Assembly (NCBI GenBank): GCA_003235715.1
Contig: QJVM01000137.1
Location: 1 to 37,399, forward strand
Reading direction: 5' to 3'
Length of the DNA: 37,399 nt
DNA from: Nitrospirota bacterium
GTDB lineage: Bacteria; Nitrospirota; Thermodesulfovibrionia; SZUA-242
A program made the position numbers and the translations under genes. The notes under the pieces were generated by a model. It was given only the letters and a program-made list of their open reading frames with translations, was not told where the DNA came from and made no database searches. Shown one piece after another: positions 4,744-20,263 of this stretch. Within the stretch, counting starts at the first letter, position 1, and the number at the start of each line of letters is the position of its first letter.

Positions 4744-5688
4744 ATGTCGCGCACGGGGAGGGCTACATTGAAGACGCTCGGACTTCAGTTCCCGGTCCAG
4801 ACCCTTGACGGACAGATTCTACTGCCGTCCGGGACGCTGCTCGATGCCGATGCAATCGGAGGGCTCATGGAACAGAGCCGCAGCGAAAACTGGCCCCGCT
4901 TGCCCGTTCTTGAGTACTCGACCATCCGCAAGGATATTCTCTACTTCTTCACCCATCCGCCCTATGAGATCATCTTTTCAGGGGAGAAACGCGTGAACGA
5001 TGTTCTCGGGCTCATGCAGGAAGTGTCCCTTCCCCTGCCTCTGCTGGAAATCCTGGAACGGTTCCGGGAGGCGGATTTCTACACGTACCGGCACATGCTC
5101 CTCGTATTTGCACTCTCGGCCCTGCTGGCCCGGGAAATGGTGGAGGACCCGGAGGAGAGACGGCACTCGCTCAGGGCCAGCCCGACACACGACGTGGGCA
5201 AAATCGGAGTCCCTCTCGAGGTTCTCAGAAAACCAACGACGTTGACCCCCTCCGACCGGCAGATCCTCAGGCACCACGTGATCTCGGGATTTGTGCTTGC
5301 AGGGTATTACCTTCAGGATTTTACGCTTCTCCCGGTCTGCGTGGCCCGTGACCATCATGAACGACGGGACGGTTCCGGGTACCCCCTCGGTGAGGCCATT
5401 GACGATTTGTTTCTGGAGATGGTCATCGTGGCGGATATATACGATGCGCTGCTTTCCCCCCGACCATACCGGCCGAATGCCTACGAGAAAAGGTCCGCGC
5501 TTGAGGTTCTGACGACCATGGCGGAAAAGGGAAAGGTCCGTTGGGATGTCGTGGAAACCCTCATCATCCTCAATCGTCGGCGTAAACACCCGCCCGATGG
5601 CGAACGACGGGTTTCCCGCGAGCGGCGCGGCGCCGAGCCGGCTGGAAATTCCTACAGTCTTCCCTCCCGCGACGAAGAGCGTCACTGA
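4744..5688 (+). CDS. HD-GYP domain protein, predicted cyclic-di-GMP phosphodiesterase
   Basis: Soluble HD-GYP protein of 314 residues, expected to hydrolyse the second messenger c-di-GMP. The catalytic signature is almost complete: HDVGKIGVP (His149-Asp150), HH at 177-178, HHERRDGSGYP (204-214) and DIYDALLSPRPYR (231-243). An upstream His in TYRHMLLVFALSA is the usual first metal ligand. The first 100 residues lack a recognised sensor or receiver domain. They resemble the short lead segment (LLPSGTLLD) common in stand-alone HD-GYP proteins. The last 40 residues are polar and Arg/Glu-rich. A TTG at 4768 with GGGGAGGG seven bases upstream is a serious alternative start, eight codons shorter. 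Confidence 0.88.
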   Translation: MSRTGRATLKTLGLQFPVQTLDGQILLPSGTLLDADAIGGLMEQSRSENWPRLPVLEYSTIRKDILYFFTHPPYEIIFSGEKRVNDVLGLMQEVSLPLPLLEILERFREADFYTYRHMLLVFALSALLAREMVEDPEERRHSLRASPTHDVGKIGVPLEVLRKPTTLTPSDRQILRHHVISGFVLAGYYLQDFTLLPVCVARDHHERRDGSGYPLGEAIDDLFLEMVIVADIYDALLSPRPYRPNAYEKRSALEVLTTMAEKGKVRWDVVETLIILNRRRKHPPDGERRVSRERRGAEPAGNSYSLPSRDEERH

Positions 5689-5792
5689 TAGCCCGCAATC
5701 CCCCGGCCACAGCCCCGACGGTTTAACTGGCCGCTGCCATCCTGTTAGAATTCCCTCGCCATTCCTTACAATTTTCAATGGGGGTTACCCGA

Positions 5793-7085
5793 ATGTCCGA
5801 GCTCAAGAAGATGTACAAGACCGTCATGGACGACCATTTCCCGGACGAAATGACCATCACCTTTGGCGAGCAGAAGCTCACGTATCGCAAACGGGCCTGG
5901 ACGATTCCGGATGCCAAGACCGGCGAATTGATCCGGAAAGGCCTGCGATATGGTGAGAACCCGGGCCAGGAAGCCGCGCTCTATGAGTTGACGGGTGGTA
6001 ACCTGGCGCTTGGCGGATGCGAGTTCATCCAGCCCGGTAACGGCCTGACGAGTGCCATCACAGAGGAGGACATGATCCAGGAAGGGAAGCATCCGGGCAA
6101 GACGAATCTTACCGACCTGGATAACGGGCTGAACATTCTGAAGTATCTGACGGAAAAACCTACCGCGGTCATCCTCAAACACAACAACCCCTGTGGGGCC
6201 GCCCAGGCCGGGAACCTGTCCGATGCGTATGATCGGGCGAACACGGCCGACCGGATTGCCGCCTTCGGGGGCGCGCTCGTGGTGAACCGGGCCATGGACC
6301 AGGCTACGGCTGAACTCGTGAGCCAGAATTATCTTGAAGTCGTTGCGGCCCCGGAGTTCGAGGAGGGAAGCGTCGAGATTCTTGCCCGTAGAAAGAATCT
6401 GCGGATTATCCGGGTTCCCGGCATCCATCGCCTCAAGAACTTTGCAACCCTCCGGTTCGCGGATTTCAAGTGCCTCATCGACGGCGGTATCATTGTTCAG
6501 CAGTCCCCGCTGAACCGGGTCCTCCGGCGGGAGGATTTTCTCCCGGCCGAGACGGTATACCAGGGCAGGACGTACCGCCCTGAACGTGAGCCCACCGAGC
6601 GGGAATACGATGACCTGCTGTTTGGCTGGTCCGTGGAACAGGGGATCACGTCGAATTCGGTGATTTATGTGAAGGACGGCGTGACCGTGGGTATCGGCAC
6701 CGGCGAACAGGACCGCGTCGGTGTGGCCGAGATTGCCGTCTTCAAGGCCTATACCAAGTACGCGGATGCCCTCTGCTACAGGCGTTTTGGCGTGCCGTAC
6801 AAGACGTACGAACTTGAGGCCAGCCAGGGCAAACGGGATATGGCCGGGCTGAAGGAGGTCGACGAGGAGACCCGTAAGAACAAAGGGGGGCTCATTGGAT
6901 CGGTCATGATCTCAGACGCCTTCTTCCCCTTCCGGGACGGTGTGGATGTGGGTATCAAGGAGGGCGTCTCGGCCATTGCCCATGCCGGCGGATCCGAGCG
7001 GGATTTTGAATCGATTCAGGCCTGTAACGAAGCTGATCCAAAGGTGGCCATGGTGTTTACGGGGCAGCGCGCCTTCAAGCATTGA
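5793..7085 (+). CDS. purH: AICAR formyltransferase (C-terminal half of PurH as a separate gene)
   Basis: Predicted to transfer a formyl group from 10-formyl-tetrahydrofolate to AICAR, giving FAICAR, the substrate of the cyclohydrolase at 667-1371. The 430-residue protein carries the AICARFT core: AVILKHNNPCGAA (the KH and NPCG catalytic segment), DRIAAFGGALVVNRAMD, and a C-terminal SVMISDAFFPFRDGVD. It lacks an MGS-like cyclohydrolase domain and has its own N-terminal extension (MYKTVMDDHFPDEMTITFG). The ATG at 5793 has only a weak GGGGG upstream; an in-frame ATG at 5778 would add five residues. The two PurH halves lie 4.4 kb apart, in the same orientation, with unrelated genes between. Confidence 0.9.
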   Translation: MSELKKMYKTVMDDHFPDEMTITFGEQKLTYRKRAWTIPDAKTGELIRKGLRYGENPGQEAALYELTGGNLALGGCEFIQPGNGLTSAITEEDMIQEGKHPGKTNLTDLDNGLNILKYLTEKPTAVILKHNNPCGAAQAGNLSDAYDRANTADRIAAFGGALVVNRAMDQATAELVSQNYLEVVAAPEFEEGSVEILARRKNLRIIRVPGIHRLKNFATLRFADFKCLIDGGIIVQQSPLNRVLRREDFLPAETVYQGRTYRPEREPTEREYDDLLFGWSVEQGITSNSVIYVKDGVTVGIGTGEQDRVGVAEIAVFKAYTKYADALCYRRFGVPYKTYELEASQGKRDMAGLKEVDEETRKNKGGLIGSVMISDAFFPFRDGVDVGIKEGVSAIAHAGGSERDFESIQACNEADPKVAMVFTGQRAFKH

Positions 7086-13049: not shown

Positions 13050-14309
13050 CTATTGGGCCGCAAGCACGGAGCCGGTGAGGGTCCTCAGAAACATTTCGAG
13101 GTATTGGACCTCCTCATCCGTGATCTGTCCGTGTGCGATGTCCGGCCGTCCGAGACCTCCATGTCCACGCCCCTGGGCCACCTTCTGGTAATGCTTCAAA
13201 ACGTCCCGCAGCGTGCTGAACTGGCCGGCATGCATGTAAGGGGGGCGTTCGGCCACGTTCCGCAGGGATGGGGTCTTGAAGGCCCCTTCGTAAGGGGCTT
13301 CATCCGTATCCATGAAGCGGAGTTCCGCACACTCTTCAGGCCGGGCATCGCTGTATTTCCCGAGACAGTTAAACTCGTTTTCCTGCACTTTTCGTATGGC
13401 TTCCGCGCGCCCCCGATCCGGGGCGAATCCCGAGGGCTGGGGGACCCCTACGCTATGAAATTCATTGTTCGTAAGGAGCGGTCCGTTGTGGCAGTTGATG
13501 CACTGGCCTTTCCCGATAAACACCTTCAGTCCCATGGCCTCCTCGGGGGTGAAGGTTCCCTCCATTCCTGCCTGGTCCCCGTCGAGAGCAGCCTTTACAT
13601 ACCGATCAAAACGGGAGGGCCCCGGCATGATGGTCCTCACGTAGGCGGCAATGGATTTGCCGAGATTGGCATAGAGCGAAGAGACGGCGTTCCGCTGTTC
13701 CTCGGTCATGCCGTCCCACAGGGCCTGGGCTTCGGCATTATCCGGAGCCGGACGTGCCGCGGCAGGAAACTCCTTGTCGGAAAACTCGGGCATGGGACCG
13801 AACAGGTCCTCGTACTCGTTCCGGTAATGCGTGTAAACGATCAGGGCGCAACGGGTGCGGCTGATGCCATGCTCCACAGAACTTTCGATCGGCCCGAGGG
13901 CCTGTGCCCAAAGACTGTCCGCACGACCGTCCCAGAAGAGCCAGGGACTGTAAGCCACGCCAGCCAGGGGCATGGAACGCCGCGTCGTAAAGTCCATCCC
14001 GTGGGCTACCGGAAGGTTGTCCGTAAAGTTTCGGTCCGGCATATGACAGGTTGAACACGCCACCTGTCCGTTGGCGCTCAGCCGTTTATCGAAGAAAAGT
14101 TTCCTGCCGAGCGAGACGGCCCGGTAGTCGTTCGAATACTTGTTGGAGGGATTCTCGGGTGCGGGAGGCAGCGACCCAAGCCAGAGCGATTTCAGGGTCT
14201 GAACTTCATCGGTGGTCCATACATGAGCGTCCGGATGGACCGCCTGCGCCCCCGCGGCAAGAGCCAGGCAAAGGATGAAGAGGCCGGCCTGCAGAATGCC
14301 CCTGATCAT
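13050..14309 (-). CDS. Diheme cytochrome c peroxidase / MauG-family protein
   Basis: Secreted diheme protein of 419 residues with a signal peptide (about 1-23). Two heme sites are present: CSTCH (85-89) and CINCH (270-274). The family blocks ALGRKLFFDKRLS-like (here VSLGRKLFFDKRLS), FWDGRADSLWAQALGPI, FKTPSLRNVAERPPYMHAG and TLRDVLKHY are all clear. The family includes hydrogen peroxide-reducing CcpA and MauG-like enzymes that oxidise residues of a partner protein; sequence alone does not decide between them. The ATG at 14309 has GAGGTG upstream. The stop codon of the preceding YtkA-like gene lies between this site and the ATG, so the two are translationally coupled. A GTG at 14315 is an alternative start. 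Confidence 0.93.
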   Translation of the reverse strand: MIRGILQAGLFILCLALAAGAQAVHPDAHVWTTDEVQTLKSLWLGSLPPAPENPSNKYSNDYRAVSLGRKLFFDKRLSANGQVACSTCHMPDRNFTDNLPVAHGMDFTTRRSMPLAGVAYSPWLFWDGRADSLWAQALGPIESSVEHGISRTRCALIVYTHYRNEYEDLFGPMPEFSDKEFPAAARPAPDNAEAQALWDGMTEEQRNAVSSLYANLGKSIAAYVRTIMPGPSRFDRYVKAALDGDQAGMEGTFTPEEAMGLKVFIGKGQCINCHNGPLLTNNEFHSVGVPQPSGFAPDRGRAEAIRKVQENEFNCLGKYSDARPEECAELRFMDTDEAPYEGAFKTPSLRNVAERPPYMHAGQFSTLRDVLKHYQKVAQGRGHGGLGRPDIAHGQITDEEVQYLEMFLRTLTGSVLAAQ

Positions 14310-14311
14310 GG

Positions 14312-15166
14312 TCACCTCACGTCCACGTTGAAGGTCGCCTGGTCGTGTATCTCTCCGGCCTCGATATCAAAGGTCAGGATCCACCACCCCGGCATGCTGA
14401 ATTTCATCCCTTCCACGAGATATACGCCGTCGGTGAGCTCACGGGTAATCGCCGGCTTGGTCGGCAGCCCGTGTCCGTGCTCCGGCATGTTTCCGGCCAC
14501 GGTCACGTTGGCGCCCTTAACGGGATTTCCCTGGAGGTTGGTGAGCGTCAGATGCCAGCTGTGAATCCGGTTCATGGTGACCTTTCCGTCCACCGGTTCA
14601 TAAGCGGCCATGAAATGTCCTGCGGCCGTCTTTCGCGACGTGGAGAGGTCTGTTCCCTCGGGGGGGCGGCTGATGCCCATGGGTTGCATCATCATGTGAC
14701 CCTCTTCCCCATGCATGCCGGTTTCGGGCATGCGGACATCCGGGAACTCGAAGGTTACGGTGTCCCGGCCCACTTCGCCCTGGATGTCGATCTTGAGTTC
14801 CCAGGGGCCTTCCATGTTAGCCACGACATTTTCCGCGCTGTAAAGGCCTGCGCCCCGTTCTGTGATAACCGGCTCCTCATTGACTCCATGACCCATCATG
14901 GGCATCCACGGGACCACCTTGATGATGGCGTTCTCGACGTCCCGGTTCCCCTCCACATCCTTGTGAACGATGAGGTCCAGGGTGTTGCTGCCCACACTAT
15001 AGTGACCGTCCTTTACCAGGAGTTCCACGCTGTAGTATCCCTTGTCCGTGATCTTGAACAGGCTCCCCTCGTAGTGGGGATGAAGATGAGTCGGTTTCTC
15101 CTGGGAGACGGCTCCGGCACAGGCACTTACTATGAGACACAACACCAAAGTGATGGGCTTTCTCAT
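14312..15166 (-). CDS. YtkA/FixH-like lipoprotein with two Met/His-rich domains
   Basis: A 284-residue lipoprotein: the signal sequence ends in the lipobox VSAC (Cys16). Two similar beta-sandwich domains follow. Each is of the YtkA-like type and each carries a Met/His cluster in the same place, MPMMGHG near residues 88-94 and MPEHGHG near 236. A third Met/His-rich stretch (MHGEEGHMMMQPMG) links them. Such clusters suggest copper binding, though none has been shown here. The ATG at 15166 has a strong AGGAGG site; a longer frame from 15274 lacks one and would hide the signal peptide. It is the first gene of a two-gene unit with the diheme peroxidase, so it may be the partner of that enzyme. Confidence 0.78.
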   Translation of the reverse strand: MRKPITLVLCLIVSACAGAVSQEKPTHLHPHYEGSLFKITDKGYYSVELLVKDGHYSVGSNTLDLIVHKDVEGNRDVENAIIKVVPWMPMMGHGVNEEPVITERGAGLYSAENVVANMEGPWELKIDIQGEVGRDTVTFEFPDVRMPETGMHGEEGHMMMQPMGISRPPEGTDLSTSRKTAAGHFMAAYEPVDGKVTMNRIHSWHLTLTNLQGNPVKGANVTVAGNMPEHGHGLPTKPAITRELTDGVYLVEGMKFSMPGWWILTFDIEAGEIHDQATFNVDVR

Positions 15167-15356
15167 TAAATTCCTCCTAATCGATCTCTTAGACACTTCT
15201 ATGAATACGGATGACCTCCAAAAAAACGATGAAGTGAGTGGAGTCCTGTTCTTACGGTATCTCAAGAAAATCACGTCCAGTTCACGGGGAAGTCACCTAT
15301 TCCTATCACTTCGGTTCTTAATCTTCGTCGAGTGACGGACGCGAGGACACACAACC

Positions 15357-15386: not shown

Positions 15387-15505
15387 GGATATCTTGGAAC
15401 CCGGCATCCCGAAGCCCCACCCTTTGAAAAAACAGGGCATTCTTGCCGATAGGGAAAAATCCGTCGCGCCACGGGGCGGAGCATCGCACACAGGGAGGAC
15501 GCATT

Positions 15506-16639
15506 ATGGGCACCAACAACGTTATCTTTCTCGAAGTCCTTGAATGGTTTGACGATACCGGAAGGGCAATTGTCCACCGTATTCCCGAAACCGGCTCGGG
15601 CGAGATCAAGCTCGGAGCCCAGCTTACAGTACGGGAAAGCCAGGCGGCGGTCTTCTACTATCAGGGCAAGGCCTATGATGCCTTTGCGGCCGGCCGGCAT
15701 ACGCTGACCACGGCCAACATCCCCATCCTGAACAAGATCCTGAGCATCCCATGGGCCATGACCAGCCCTTTGAGGGCCGAGGTCTATTTCGTCAACATGA
15801 AATCCTTCCCCAATCTCAAGTGGGGAACCAAGGACCCCGTGGCCTTCAAGGATGCCGAGCTGGGTCTCATAAGGCTTCGGGCCTTCGGCATGTTCAATCT
15901 GCGGGTGGTTCAGCCGGTCCTCTTCATCAACAACCTTGTGGGGACACAGGGGGTTTATACGACCCAGGATATCGATGAGTATCTGAGTCGGGTGATCGTG
16001 TCCCGCTTCAACGACCACCTCGGGGAGAACCTGGATACGATCTTCAATCTTCCCGGCCGCTACGACGACCTTTCGGAAGGCCTGAAGAAAAGGCTTGCCG
16101 AGGATTTCAGCCATTACGGCCTCGCGCTTACGCATCTCTACATCAGTTCCATCACCCCGCCGCCCGAGGTCCAGCAGGCCATCGACGACAAGAGCCGCCT
16201 TGCGGTCTTCGATGATCTGAACAAGCTTCTCAAGATGAAGGCGGCCATGGCCGTGGAAAAGATATCGGAACAGCAGGGTGAGGCGGGGGCCGGTGTAGGG
16301 ATGGGTCTCGGCGTCATGATGCCGGCCATGTTCTCGAATCTCTTCGGCGGGGGTCCGCCCCCGGGGAACGGAGGGGCCCCTTCCGGACCGGTGACGACCT
16401 GTCCCGACTGCAAGGGCCCGGTTCCCGCAGAGGCCCGTTTCTGCAACCACTGCGGCCACCAGATTGTGGTTCTCCAGCAGTGCCGGCAGTGCGGGAAGAA
16501 TCTTCCGTCCTCGGCCCGGTTCTGCTCCCGGTGCGGAACAAAGGTGGAGGAGAAGCCGGCATCGAAGATATGCCCCCACTGCAGGACCGAGAACCTCCAG
16601 GAATCGGTCTTCTGCAACCAGTGCGGAGAGAAACTGTGA
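15506..16639 (+). CDS. SPFH domain protein with three C-terminal zinc ribbons (YdjI-like)
   Basis: A 377-residue cytoplasmic-looking protein. Residues about 30-220 form an SPFH (band 7) domain of the YdjI, or virion-core-protein-like, type (FYYQGKAYDAFAAGRHTLTTANIP, interrupted here by no gap, then FNLRVVQPVLFINNLVG). A Gly/Met-rich low-complexity linker (about 262-296) follows, then three CxxC...CxxC zinc ribbons starting near residues 299, 326 and 356. There is no N-terminal membrane helix. SPFH proteins form large ring assemblies on membranes; the YdjI type in Bacillus acts with membrane-stress proteins. The role here is unknown. The ATG has GGGAGG upstream. The next gene, also a zinc-ribbon protein, probably works with it. 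Confidence 0.82.
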   Translation: MGTNNVIFLEVLEWFDDTGRAIVHRIPETGSGEIKLGAQLTVRESQAAVFYYQGKAYDAFAAGRHTLTTANIPILNKILSIPWAMTSPLRAEVYFVNMKSFPNLKWGTKDPVAFKDAELGLIRLRAFGMFNLRVVQPVLFINNLVGTQGVYTTQDIDEYLSRVIVSRFNDHLGENLDTIFNLPGRYDDLSEGLKKRLAEDFSHYGLALTHLYISSITPPPEVQQAIDDKSRLAVFDDLNKLLKMKAAMAVEKISEQQGEAGAGVGMGLGVMMPAMFSNLFGGGPPPGNGGAPSGPVTTCPDCKGPVPAEARFCNHCGHQIVVLQQCRQCGKNLPSSARFCSRCGTKVEEKPASKICPHCRTENLQESVFCNQCGEKL

Positions 16640-16682
16640 CGGCGGTTTGATTGGTCCAATTGGTGATTTGCTGACGGGTTAA

Positions 16683-16806
16683 TTGGTTGGGCCGGGTTCA
16701 TTCCCGGTAGAAAACGGTCCGGCTCCATGTCGGGACTGTCTTCATCTCTCCGAACAGAGGGTGATATGGTCAACCAACCAACGAACCAACGGACGAACGA
16801 ACCCAC
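16683..16806. repeat. Degenerate TTGGTT / CCAACC repeats
   Basis: The gap between the SPFH and zinc-ribbon genes has a TTGGTTGG copy (16683-16690) and a row of CCAACCAACGAACCAAC-type units (about 16771-16805). The two blocks are complementary and could form a stem over about 80 bases of spacer. It may be simple-sequence drift with no function. Confidence 0.35.
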
Positions 16807-16821
16807 CCAGAAACGTTCTTC

Positions 16822-18078
16822 ATGGAAAATTCCCTTCGTATCGATTATCAGTGCCCGCAGTGCGGTGCCCCCGTGGTTATCGAGGAGACGGACCGGCTTT
16901 TTACCTGTGGGTTCTGCCGCGTCCGCATCGTCTTCAACCCCGGGGAGCAGTTCCGCTACTGCCTCCCGGTAACCGGGGATACACTGGCGGATGACGTAGT
17001 CTATATTCCCTTCTGGCGGTTTAAGGGCATGTACTTCAACTGCGTGCCCTTCGAGGTCAAGGGCAAGATCATGGATGCGACCTTCCCGTCTCTGGACCTT
17101 GATTTTATGCCCCCGAACCTGGGCTATCGGACGCAGACCCATGCTCTCCGGATGGCTTCGTCCAGCCTGGGGCGGGCTTTCCTGGCCCCTCATACCCGGC
17201 ACGAGGACGTTCTCGCCATGGTGGAAAGCCGGACTCATTACGTGGACGTGATGAACAAGGAGTCGGGCTCTCTCTTCAAGGCCTACGTGGGGGAGGTCAC
17301 GAGCCTCATCTACACGCCCGTCTATATCCGGAACCGGGCCATTTATGACGGCATCATCAACCGGCCCCTTGGCCGCTACTCGGTGGAACGCCAGCCCGTT
17401 TTCGAGAACGCGCCCGGGGAACCGGGGTGGACGTTTCAGTTCGTGCCGGCGCTTTGTCCCGGTTGCGGGTGGGACCTGGAAGGCGAAAGAGACAGCGTGG
17501 TCCTCACCTGCCGAAATTGTGAAACCGCGTGGCGGATGGCGGATGGCGCCTTCAGTCGTGTCGAGTACGGAGTGGTCGAGGCCAGGACTCCCGGGGCCTA
17601 TCTTCTCCCGTTCTGGGTCATGCGCTTCAGCTTCGAGGGGGTCACGCTCGATACCTATGCAGACCTGGTTCGGCTGGCCAACCTGCCGCGCGCGGTCCAG
17701 AAGGCCTGGGAGGTACAGGCCCTTCAATTCTGGACGCCTGCATTCCGCGTGGCCCCGTCGCCCTATAGCCGTATTTCCAGGCAGTTCACCATGTTGCAGC
17801 CGGATGTGGTCACCAGTCCGTCCCTGCCTCGCGGTGGCGTTCACCCGGTGACCCTCGGGGCTTCGGATGCGGCCCGGGGCGTGCTGGTCATTCTTGGAAC
17901 TATGGCTGTGGCCAAACAACGGCTTCTTCCCCGCTTGGCAGACATTCGGCCAAAGCTCGAGGAAGCCCGTCTGACATACCTCCCCTTTGAGGTTCACGGG
18001 CAGGAACTGCAGCATCCGGGGACGGATTTCACGATTCCGCTCAATGCTTTCCGGGGGCACCCCCCGGCCTTACGATAA
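16822..18078 (+). CDS. Zinc-ribbon protein of unknown function, SPFH partner
   Basis: I do not recognise a named family in this 418-residue protein. It begins with a zinc ribbon (YQCPQCGAP, Cys11/14, then FTCGFC, Cys29/32) and has a second one in the middle (LCPGCGW, Cys212/215, then TCRNC, Cys230/233). Between and after them are beta-rich stretches with many aromatic residues (VYIPFWRFKGMYFNCVPFEV and AYLLPFWVMRFSFEGV), suggesting two repeats of one unit: a ribbon followed by a PFW-containing domain. No signal peptide or clear membrane helix is seen. The ATG lacks a ribosome site. It follows the SPFH/zinc-ribbon gene by 182 bases on the same strand, and the shared ribbons suggest a common complex. 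Confidence 0.72.
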   Translation: MENSLRIDYQCPQCGAPVVIEETDRLFTCGFCRVRIVFNPGEQFRYCLPVTGDTLADDVVYIPFWRFKGMYFNCVPFEVKGKIMDATFPSLDLDFMPPNLGYRTQTHALRMASSSLGRAFLAPHTRHEDVLAMVESRTHYVDVMNKESGSLFKAYVGEVTSLIYTPVYIRNRAIYDGIINRPLGRYSVERQPVFENAPGEPGWTFQFVPALCPGCGWDLEGERDSVVLTCRNCETAWRMADGAFSRVEYGVVEARTPGAYLLPFWVMRFSFEGVTLDTYADLVRLANLPRAVQKAWEVQALQFWTPAFRVAPSPYSRISRQFTMLQPDVVTSPSLPRGGVHPVTLGASDAARGVLVILGTMAVAKQRLLPRLADIRPKLEEARLTYLPFEVHGQELQHPGTDFTIPLNAFRGHPPALR

Positions 18079-18128: not shown

Positions 18129-18291
18129 GTCCGCGCTGTCTCTTCCTCCAGCCCGGAGACGGGACTTGCCGTGTCTTGAATCGGCCCAAGAGCAGGGTGT
18201 AAACTCCAAATTCGGGACAGGGGTCCCCTCCGGTGTTGTTGAGATGGGGCCTCCAATAAATGAAGACGTTCCGACGAGTGGAGGTGACCCT

Positions 18292-18870
18292 ATGACTTCC
18301 CCGCTTCGTCAAGGCAGAAAGATGAAACTGAATTTCCTTGATACGGGAGTGCTCGCGGTCCTCCTTTTCACCCTTGGGATGCCCGTGGCCCCGTTAGAGG
18401 CTTCGTCTGCGGAGGCCGCCAGGACCCCGGTAGATTTCAAACTCCCCCACCTCGAGGACCCGGCAAAAACAACATCCCTGTCCGATTTCCGGGGCCAGGT
18501 GGTTCTCCTGAATCTCTGGGCGAGCTGGTGCACGGGGTGCCGGAAGGAAATGACCGAGTTCATCACGCTGCAGAAGGAGTTCCGCCAGAAGAAATTTGCA
18601 GTCGTCGCCGTAAACCTCGACGACCAGAAGGGGAGGGCTCTTTCCTTTCTGAAGAAGTATGCCCAAGCGGAGGGTCAGAAGATTGGGTTTCTTACCCTCT
18701 ACGACAAGGACAAATCCCTTGCCGACCGCCTGAATCCCACGGCGTTCCCTGCTTCCTACCTGATCGATGTTTCCGGGAATCTGGTCAAGTCCTATGTGGG
18801 TTCCATCTCGGACAAGGATCTTCCTTTGCTCAGGCGGGAGATCGATGCGCTTCTCAAGGAGAATCGGTGA
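18292..18870 (+). CDS. TlpA-like thioredoxin-fold protein, exported
   Basis: A 192-residue periplasmic thiol-disulfide protein. The hydrophobic stretch (about 15-35) is an uncleaved anchor or a signal peptide. It is followed by a TlpA/ResA-type domain with SLSDFRGQVVLLNLWASWC and the redox pair Cys80-Thr-Gly-Cys83, and later the cis-Pro region FPASYLIDVSGNLVKSYVG. The ATG at 18292 is chosen for its excellent GGAGGTGA site; an ATG ten codons later is less well served. Its stop codon overlaps the start of the DUF4266 gene (GTGA). This tight order, thioredoxin, DUF4266, DUF3570, suggests it keeps Cys residues of its partners reduced or helps mature the envelope complex. Confidence 0.88.
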   Translation: MTSPLRQGRKMKLNFLDTGVLAVLLFTLGMPVAPLEASSAEAARTPVDFKLPHLEDPAKTTSLSDFRGQVVLLNLWASWCTGCRKEMTEFITLQKEFRQKKFAVVAVNLDDQKGRALSFLKKYAQAEGQKIGFLTLYDKDKSLADRLNPTAFPASYLIDVSGNLVKSYVGSISDKDLPLLRREIDALLKENR

Positions 18871-19094
18871 GGACGCTTCTCCTGTATCTCCTTTTAGTTT
18901 CTGTTTTGCTGGTCACGGCGTGTTCGGATGCGCTGGTCAGGGTGAAACCCTATGAGCGGGGGTACTTCGCCCAGGAGAAGATGCTGTTTTCACCCCTGCC
19001 GGCCAGTGCCGAGTTTGAGGAGCACATCTTCGCGGTCCGTGAGAGCTCCCAGGGAGGGTCTGTCTCCTTCCAGGGCGGATGCGGATGCCGATGA
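18867..19094 (+). CDS. DUF4266 lipoprotein
   Basis: A 75-residue lipoprotein. A hydrophobic signal (LLLYLLLVSVLL) ends in the lipobox VTAC, and the mature part contains VRVKPYERGYFAQEKMLF, the conserved core of DUF4266. The C-terminus is Gly/Cys-rich (FQGGCGCR), giving two Cys residues that the upstream thioredoxin could act on. The GTG start has AAGGAG five bases upstream and overlaps the stop codon of the thioredoxin gene by three bases; its own TGA overlaps the ATG of the DUF3570 gene. All three genes must be co-translated. The family's biochemical role is unknown; its steady association with DUF3570 is the best clue. Confidence 0.87.
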   Translation: MRTLLLYLLLVSVLLVTACSDALVRVKPYERGYFAQEKMLFSPLPASAEFEEHIFAVRESSQGGSVSFQGGCGCR

Positions 19095-20263
19095 AAAGGG
19101 TCTTCATCGCGGCCGGACTCTTCCTGGCGGTCCTTTTTGTTTCGGCCTGGGCTGAAACGCTGGAAAACAAAATTTCGGTCTCCGTGCACGGCTACGGCGA
19201 CGATGCGGACGAGGAGATCTTTTCCGGAAAGATCGATGTCTTTCGGATTTTCCGGGAGCGGCTCGGTTTTGGGGTGAGCCTCGGGATCGACGCCATCTCC
19301 GGCGCCACAAAGACGGCTTCCGCCGATGCGGTTTCGGGTGCCACCGTCGTGGCCGCGCCGGGAGACGATGATGATGAAGGTGGAGACGGAGACGATGATG
19401 GGAGCGATTACAATGCCCGTGTCTACCCGTCCTTCCGGCTGGTGTACGACGACGGAGACAACAACGTAATGGGCGGGGCCTATTTCTCCTTCGAGGACGA
19501 TTACACCGGGCGGGCAGTCTTTCTCAACTATACGAGGCAGCTGAACCTCCAGAACACCAGCTTGAGCGCCGGAATCACCCAGTCCTTTGACAAGTGGGAC
19601 GTCGGTGGCCTCGACGATGACGATCGGAAAGAGCGGCAGGTCTCCCTTTCCGTGACCCAGTTGCTGGGCCGCCGGACCCAGATCCAGGCGGGGTACGATC
19701 TCCTGCATTCGGAAGGACATCTCGGGAACCCCAACCGGTATATCGACTTTGCCGTGGGGGGACGTGTTCTTGAACGCCTCCCCTCGGACCGGGATGGCTA
19801 TGCCCTGTCGGCGAGGCTGGTTCAGCTGCTGGCGGAGCCCACCACTGTCCACCTCTCCTACCGTTATTACGACGATGACTGGGGAATTAACTCACATACG
19901 ACGAACGTGGCGTTATTTCAGGACCTGAGCGAAACCTTCACCCTCGGCGGGCGGTACCGGTACTACACCCAGGGGGCCGCGGATTTTATCAAGCCCGTTG
20001 GGCAATACGCGGCTACGGACCCGCTGATTGGGATCGATTACAAGTACACGGATTTTGACGCACATACGGTCGGCCTCATGGCCATCTACAAACCAGGCTC
20101 GGGGCTGGAAAGTCCGGGGGGCGGGTCGGGGTGGGGCAACACCACCATCACCTTCAGTGTCGATGCTTACCAGACCTCGTCGAACGACTATATTCGGGCC
20201 TGGTACGGCCAAAGCCGTCTCACGGCCTACTTCGCCTCGCTGGGCCTTGAGTACAAGTATTGA
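19091..20263 (+). CDS. DUF3570 predicted outer-membrane beta-barrel with two flavinylation motifs
   Basis: A 390-residue exported protein: the signal peptide (about 1-21, ending SAWA) is followed by a long series of amphipathic beta strands ending in YFASLGLEYKY, as expected for an outer-membrane barrel of the DUF3570 family. Residues 67-73 (DAISGAT) and 79-85 (DAVSGAT) both match the D-x-x-[ST]-G-A-[ST] motif at which ApbE enzymes attach FMN in RnfG and NqrC, so Thr73 and Thr85 are predicted flavin sites. An Asp-rich segment (about 92-104) comes next and may bind calcium or act as a linker. The ATG at 19091 shares ATGA with the DUF4266 stop; an ATG at 19079 is possible. No apbE lies in the window. 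Confidence 0.88.
   Translation: MKRVFIAAGLFLAVLFVSAWAETLENKISVSVHGYGDDADEEIFSGKIDVFRIFRERLGFGVSLGIDAISGATKTASADAVSGATVVAAPGDDDDEGGDGDDDGSDYNARVYPSFRLVYDDGDNNVMGGAYFSFEDDYTGRAVFLNYTRQLNLQNTSLSAGITQSFDKWDVGGLDDDDRKERQVSLSVTQLLGRRTQIQAGYDLLHSEGHLGNPNRYIDFAVGGRVLERLPSDRDGYALSARLVQLLAEPTTVHLSYRYYDDDWGINSHTTNVALFQDLSETFTLGGRYRYYTQGAADFIKPVGQYAATDPLIGIDYKYTDFDAHTVGLMAIYKPGSGLESPGGGSGWGNTTITFSVDAYQTSSNDYIRAWYGQSRLTAYFASLGLEYKY

Follow-up and report, generated by a model that had tools for sequence, protein, structure and literature searches.

The window analysed here is a stretch of 37,399 nucleotides from a Nitrospirota bacterium (contig QJVM01000137.1, forward strand). Its positions 18292-20263 (+) hold three overlapping genes, which encode a TlpA-like thioredoxin, a DUF4266 lipoprotein and a DUF3570 protein. 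The thioredoxin gene, preceded by the Shine-Dalgarno sequence GGAGGT (18280-18285, +), runs from ATG 18292 to TGA 18870 (+). Its TlpA/ResA-like product has a signal peptide, a CxxC motif (WCTGC, 18529-18540, +) and a match to Pfam AhpC-TSA (8e-21); the NCBIfam TlpA and ResA models match it below their curated cut-offs. A GTGA overlap joins its stop codon to the start of the DUF4266 gene (GTG 18867 to TGA 19094, +; Pfam PF14086, 3e-15), and an ATGA overlap joins the DUF4266 stop to the start of the DUF3570 gene (ATG 19091 to 20263, +; Pfam PF12094, 5.3e-39, above cut-off), for which in-frame ATGs at 19079 and 19085 are alternatives. The two overlapping start/stop sites are as described in an earlier note on this DNA, which had proposed that the trio is co-translated through them. 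NCBIfam contains no model matching the DUF4266 or DUF3570 protein of the window.

Neither apbE, dsbD nor a cytochrome gene is present in the trio operon, and apbE is absent from the whole window. The trio contains no CxxCH protein, and the nearest one found in the window is a di-heme peroxidase (13050-14315) encoded some 4 kb off on the opposite strand. This MauG-type cytochrome c peroxidase is encoded with a YtkA-like protein (13050-15274, -), apart from the trio. Directly upstream of the trio (15443-18078, +) are genes for a zinc-ribbon SPFH/Band 7 protein and for a companion carrying CxxC pairs.

The DUF4266 protein is a small lipoprotein with a lipobox Cys (18921-18923, +) and a C-terminal Cys-Gly-Cys (19080-19088, +). 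It had been described as ending in Cys, but its C-terminus reads GGCGCR, that is, Cys-x-Cys-Arg. All 29 DUF4266 sequences compared share, without exception, the lipobox Cys, one Met, one His and the C-terminal Cys-Gly-Cys. Judging from these residues, the protein could have one end anchored in a membrane and a thiol pair or a metal site at its opposite end, with which it might reach into or through the DUF3570 barrel described below.

The DUF3570 protein contains two perfect copies of the ApbE flavin-attachment motif twelve residues apart, as first noticed in the earlier note: DAISGAT (19289-19309, +), at the end of predicted strand 3, and DAVSGAT (19325-19345, +), in the loop leading on to strand 4. 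The proposed target residues, Thr73 and Thr85, are correct when the protein is numbered from the start at 19091. In shuffles of the mature DUF3570 sequence, at least one motif occurred in 1,681 of 200,000 and at least two in 2 of 200,000. The motifs had been placed immediately behind the signal peptide, but a stretch of about 50 residues, predicted to form three beta-strands, separates them from it. Membership in the FMN_bind family (PF04205) of RnfG and NqrC was considered and rejected: DUF3570 is the sole Pfam match in the window protein, and the genome encodes its FMN_bind proteins elsewhere. DUF3570 shares with RnfG and NqrC the ApbE recognition motif and presumably a phosphoester-linked FMN; however, it lacks the FMN_bind domain, has an unrelated beta-barrel fold and carries two sites in a loop. 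The window DUF3570 is probably flavinylated in its host.

The association of ApbE with DUF3570, which the note had suspected not to be new, was published by Meheust et al. 2021 (PMC8238504), who described two conserved [ST]GA[ST] motifs in ApbE-associated DUF3570 proteins. The DUF3570 of Chlorobium luteolum is flavinylated by its own ApbE, and the modification is abolished only when both serines are replaced (PMC8238504); two flavin sites per protein, as proposed for the window, are thus both used in a homologue. DUF3570 genes cluster with those for thioredoxin-like proteins and DUF4266, either with DsbD or without it (316 clusters); among 285 DsbD clusters in all, 227 contain DUF3570, and electron flow from DsbD was proposed (PMC8238504). 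The window trio resembles these clusters in its two [ST]GA[ST] sites, its thioredoxin-like protein and its DUF4266 with a C-terminal CxC, and differs in that apbE, typically part of the published clusters, is not in the window cluster; dsbD, present in the DsbD subset, is likewise absent. The trio is therefore a member of the known ApbE-flavinylated DUF3570 system, with a corrected topology. In a literature search of incomplete coverage, Meheust et al. 2021 was the sole paper found to name DUF3570 or DUF4266. Its text (PMC8238504) contains neither 'barrel' nor 'porin', makes no assignment of DUF3570 to the outer membrane and does not describe the membrane side; in the text of a 2024 flavinylation follow-up that includes AlphaFold models, neither DUF3570 nor a barrel is mentioned. 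What the present models add to the known flavinylation of DUF3570 is a predicted outward-facing placement of the flavins and the corrected topology.

The genome contains one DUF3570 and one DUF4266. Following the note's suggestion to search the genome for apbE, a single copy was found, encoding a likely lipoprotein. It lies at a distance from the trio, on another contig (C140), next to a uvrA-like gene. Proteins with a DsbD_TM domain are encoded on contigs C259 and C212, with a weak match on C178. By motif, this genome has other likely ApbE targets: two RnfG and two RnfD proteins, belonging to two RNF complexes, and one NosR-like protein. On contig C155, a NosR/PceC-like membrane protein (L078, 9054-10334, -) has the glycine-less FMN_bind motif DGISRAT. 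The presence of ApbE is weak evidence because the enzyme is common in the phylum and serves other targets by motif here; co-occurrence of ApbE and DUF3570 at the genome level was set aside as evidence, since 324 of the phylum's 396 genomes contain ApbE.

DUF3570 scores above cut-off in 31 of the 396 genomes, and a profile search of genome contigs with a narrower alignment returned five Nitrospirae relatives. DUF4266 and thioredoxin genes adjoin DUF3570 at most of 30 loci in the phylum; apbE lies directly downstream at many loci, some loci include a CcdA/DsbD-type gene, and apbE is missing from the cluster in same-class relatives too. Conservation of D-x-x-S-G-A-T among relatives, which the note had proposed as a check, proved partial: the Asp and the A-[ST] end are mostly kept, whereas the Gly is often Ser, Ala, Thr or Gln, including in nine operons with an adjacent apbE. 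SGAT or TGAT occurs in the window DUF3570 and several families, and same-class relatives have TSAT, TAAT and TSAS. Families f33, f35 and f37 have SSAS and TQAS motifs with apbE directly downstream; at their loci L060-L065 and L069 the full motifs read D-x-[VI]-S-S-A-S and D-V-V-T-Q-A-S. There is no clear correlation between the motif glycine and an adjacent apbE among the DUF3570 loci of the phylum. ApbE may thus accept Ser or Gln in place of the Gly, to judge from these operons. The motif glycine is probably not essential for flavinylation, because the motif is SQAT and SRAT in this genome's RnfD proteins and because a Gly-to-Ala change keeps about half of flavinylation (PMC12052999). Its frequent loss suggests that searches based on [ST]GA[ST] miss ApbE substrates.

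The note's claim that DUF3570 is a barrel was upheld by two AlphaFold2 models. The first, of the window protein with 22 homologues (pLDDT 82.6, pTM 0.80), has 16 strands followed by a C-terminal aromatic residue; the second, led by an archetypal DUF3570 with about 25% identity (pLDDT 80.4, pTM 0.77), likewise has 16. Foldseek matched the barrel to OprD/Occ, AlgE and FadL-type proteins with probability 1.00 and TM-scores of at most 0.53. Against a viral fold library the DUF3570 model gave at most weak or generic barrel matches, and no solved structure matches the DUF3570 family in sequence. The last residue is Phe or Tyr in 24 of 25 DUF3570 sequences, as in the BAM signal. The protein thus combines the features expected of an outer-membrane beta-barrel: an even strand number in a closed barrel, a C-terminal aromatic residue and a signal peptide.

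On the side that holds the termini, the turns are short, with 3, 3, 4, 4, 2, 4 and 17 residues in the window protein and 3-5 in the archetypal one. The far side has longer loops that vary more (4, 37, 2, 7, 23, 4, 27 and 15 residues in the window protein; 5, 38, 2, 26, 29, 4, 28 and 21 in the archetypal one). In both models the S3-S4 loop that bears the motifs is on the face opposite both termini; the archetypal protein has its second motif, D-x-x-T-G-A-T, in the S9-S10 loop, likewise on the far side. An outer-membrane barrel with an even strand count has both its termini in the periplasm, and the long-loop side is accordingly taken to be extracellular. Two models and this general rule therefore lead us to predict that the flavin motif loop (19301-19411, +; predicted extracellular loop 2) is exposed at the outer face. 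The flavins had earlier been assigned to the N-terminal, periplasm-facing end of the barrel, a placement rejected here on topology because both models put the loop opposite the termini. Thr73 would be near the barrel rim because motif 1 starts within strand 3. The loop contains the acidic run DDDDEGGDGDDD (19364-19399, +) and is modelled at low confidence (pLDDT <50), so that it is probably flexible and the position of the flavins, outside the barrel or folded into its lumen, is finer than the model resolves.

Conservation is concentrated on the same side of the barrel. Among columns conserved at 85% or more, 24 of 29 fall in the far half or its loops, compared with 181 of 324 overall (hypergeometric p = 0.0015); a second alignment of mostly the same sequences gave 20 of 25 (p = 0.012). 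Both p-values assume independent columns, and the strand heights derive from the same model. Most conserved strand residues of the far half face the lumen, as judged from how hydrophobic and polar residues alternate: Asp71, Arg114, Ser137, Glu139, Asp171, Arg238, Arg262, Tyr264, Asp266, Thr274, Arg294, Tyr296 and Gln298 (numbered from 19079). In the model this looks like a conserved polar vestibule beneath the flavin loop.

The reading that we prefer, and to which we give about an even chance, is that DUF3570 is a flavin-carrying outer-membrane barrel fed by thiols, with its flavins at the outward mouth. In the periplasm, ApbE, encoded elsewhere in the genome, would attach FMN to Thr73 and Thr85 before or during insertion of the barrel; for flavins at the outer face, this periplasmic step would have to precede insertion. 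The flavinylated loop would then sit at the mouth of the 16-stranded barrel, over the polar, lumen-facing vestibule. A DsbD/CcdA-type membrane protein would reduce the thioredoxin, which would in turn reduce the Cys-Gly-Cys tip of DUF4266; DUF4266 would hand electrons to the flavins, possibly through the barrel lumen, and the flavins would reduce a target outside the cell or entering the barrel, for example Fe(III) or a cytochrome. The path from thiols to flavins, the threading of the lumen, the direction of flow and the final acceptor are parts of this scheme that we infer. Its most specific form, a heme-free route across the outer membrane in which the thioredoxin passes electrons to a DUF4266 Cys-Gly-Cys threaded in the barrel and from there to two covalent flavins on the outer face, attached before insertion, is tentative and somewhat unlikely. 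Outer-face flavins would, if real, be a means of carrying electrons to the surface of the cell with a trio that itself contains no hemes. MtrCAB conduits and Cyc2-type fusions are similar in joining an outer-membrane barrel to a redox chain, with possible electron transfer across the outer membrane, and one operon related to the window trio contains a cytochrome c-barrel fusion; the trio differs in having no CxxCH, and flavins and thiols would replace the hemes.

Alternatively, the barrel would be an uptake channel for iron or another metal with a built-in reductase, in which Fe(III) is reduced by the flavins at the outer mouth and passes inward as Fe(II), rather than a device for respiratory electron export. 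Such a role would suit a 16-stranded barrel with a polar, conserved mouth and the acidic DDDDEGGDGDDD beside the flavin sites, and the ferrous iron transporter VIT1 occurs in 25 published DUF3570 clusters (PMC8238504). However, no iron transporter lies beside the operon in the window, and the cytochromes in or near the operon of several relatives are closer to a redox chain, which leaves uptake unlikely. The flexibility of the motif loop, which might fold through the lumen, and the periplasmic location of ApbE and thioredoxin, which would make their reach simple, speak for flavins that face the periplasm and are fed directly by thioredoxin or DUF4266, with the barrel as a mere outer-membrane anchor; given the opposite placement of loop and termini in two models, and the approximately 50 residues and three strands between signal peptide and loop, we regard this arrangement as quite unlikely. 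Finally, the trio may handle thiols and disulfides or a metal such as copper at the outer membrane through the Met, His and Cys-x-Cys of DUF4266, flavinylation being minor or absent. The invariance of these DUF4266 residues is consistent with such a function, as are relatives that retain the trio but have another residue for the motif glycine and no apbE in the operon; two perfect motifs, at the frequency seen in the shuffles, and the apbE that stays adjacent in many relatives make it distinctly improbable.

The note had also proposed looking for c-type cytochromes near other DUF3570 copies, and these were found near some. Heme c lipoproteins are encoded in four of five same-class operons, as pairs of two-CxxCH lipoproteins in three and as a four-CxxCH protein in a fourth; in L047, L048, L049 and L050, lipoproteins with two to four CxxCH lie between the CcdA-type gene and the thioredoxin gene of the DUF3570 operon. 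Seven genomes encode a protein with two or three CxxCH upstream, and both examples examined contain an HZS_alpha domain. These two proteins (L062, 1742-4183, +; L069, 8274-10721, -), of about 815 residues, have three CxxCH, the HZS_alpha (hydrazine synthase alpha middle) domain and PD40 repeats; CxxCH proteins of similar size occupy the same position upstream of the DUF3570 operon in five more genomes. At L066, a DsbD/Trx/DUF4266/DUF3570/ApbE cluster, the gene directly downstream of apbE (4816-5934, -) encodes a cytochrome c (CVICH) fused to a predicted MetA-pathway-type beta-barrel, an architecture that resembles Cyc2.
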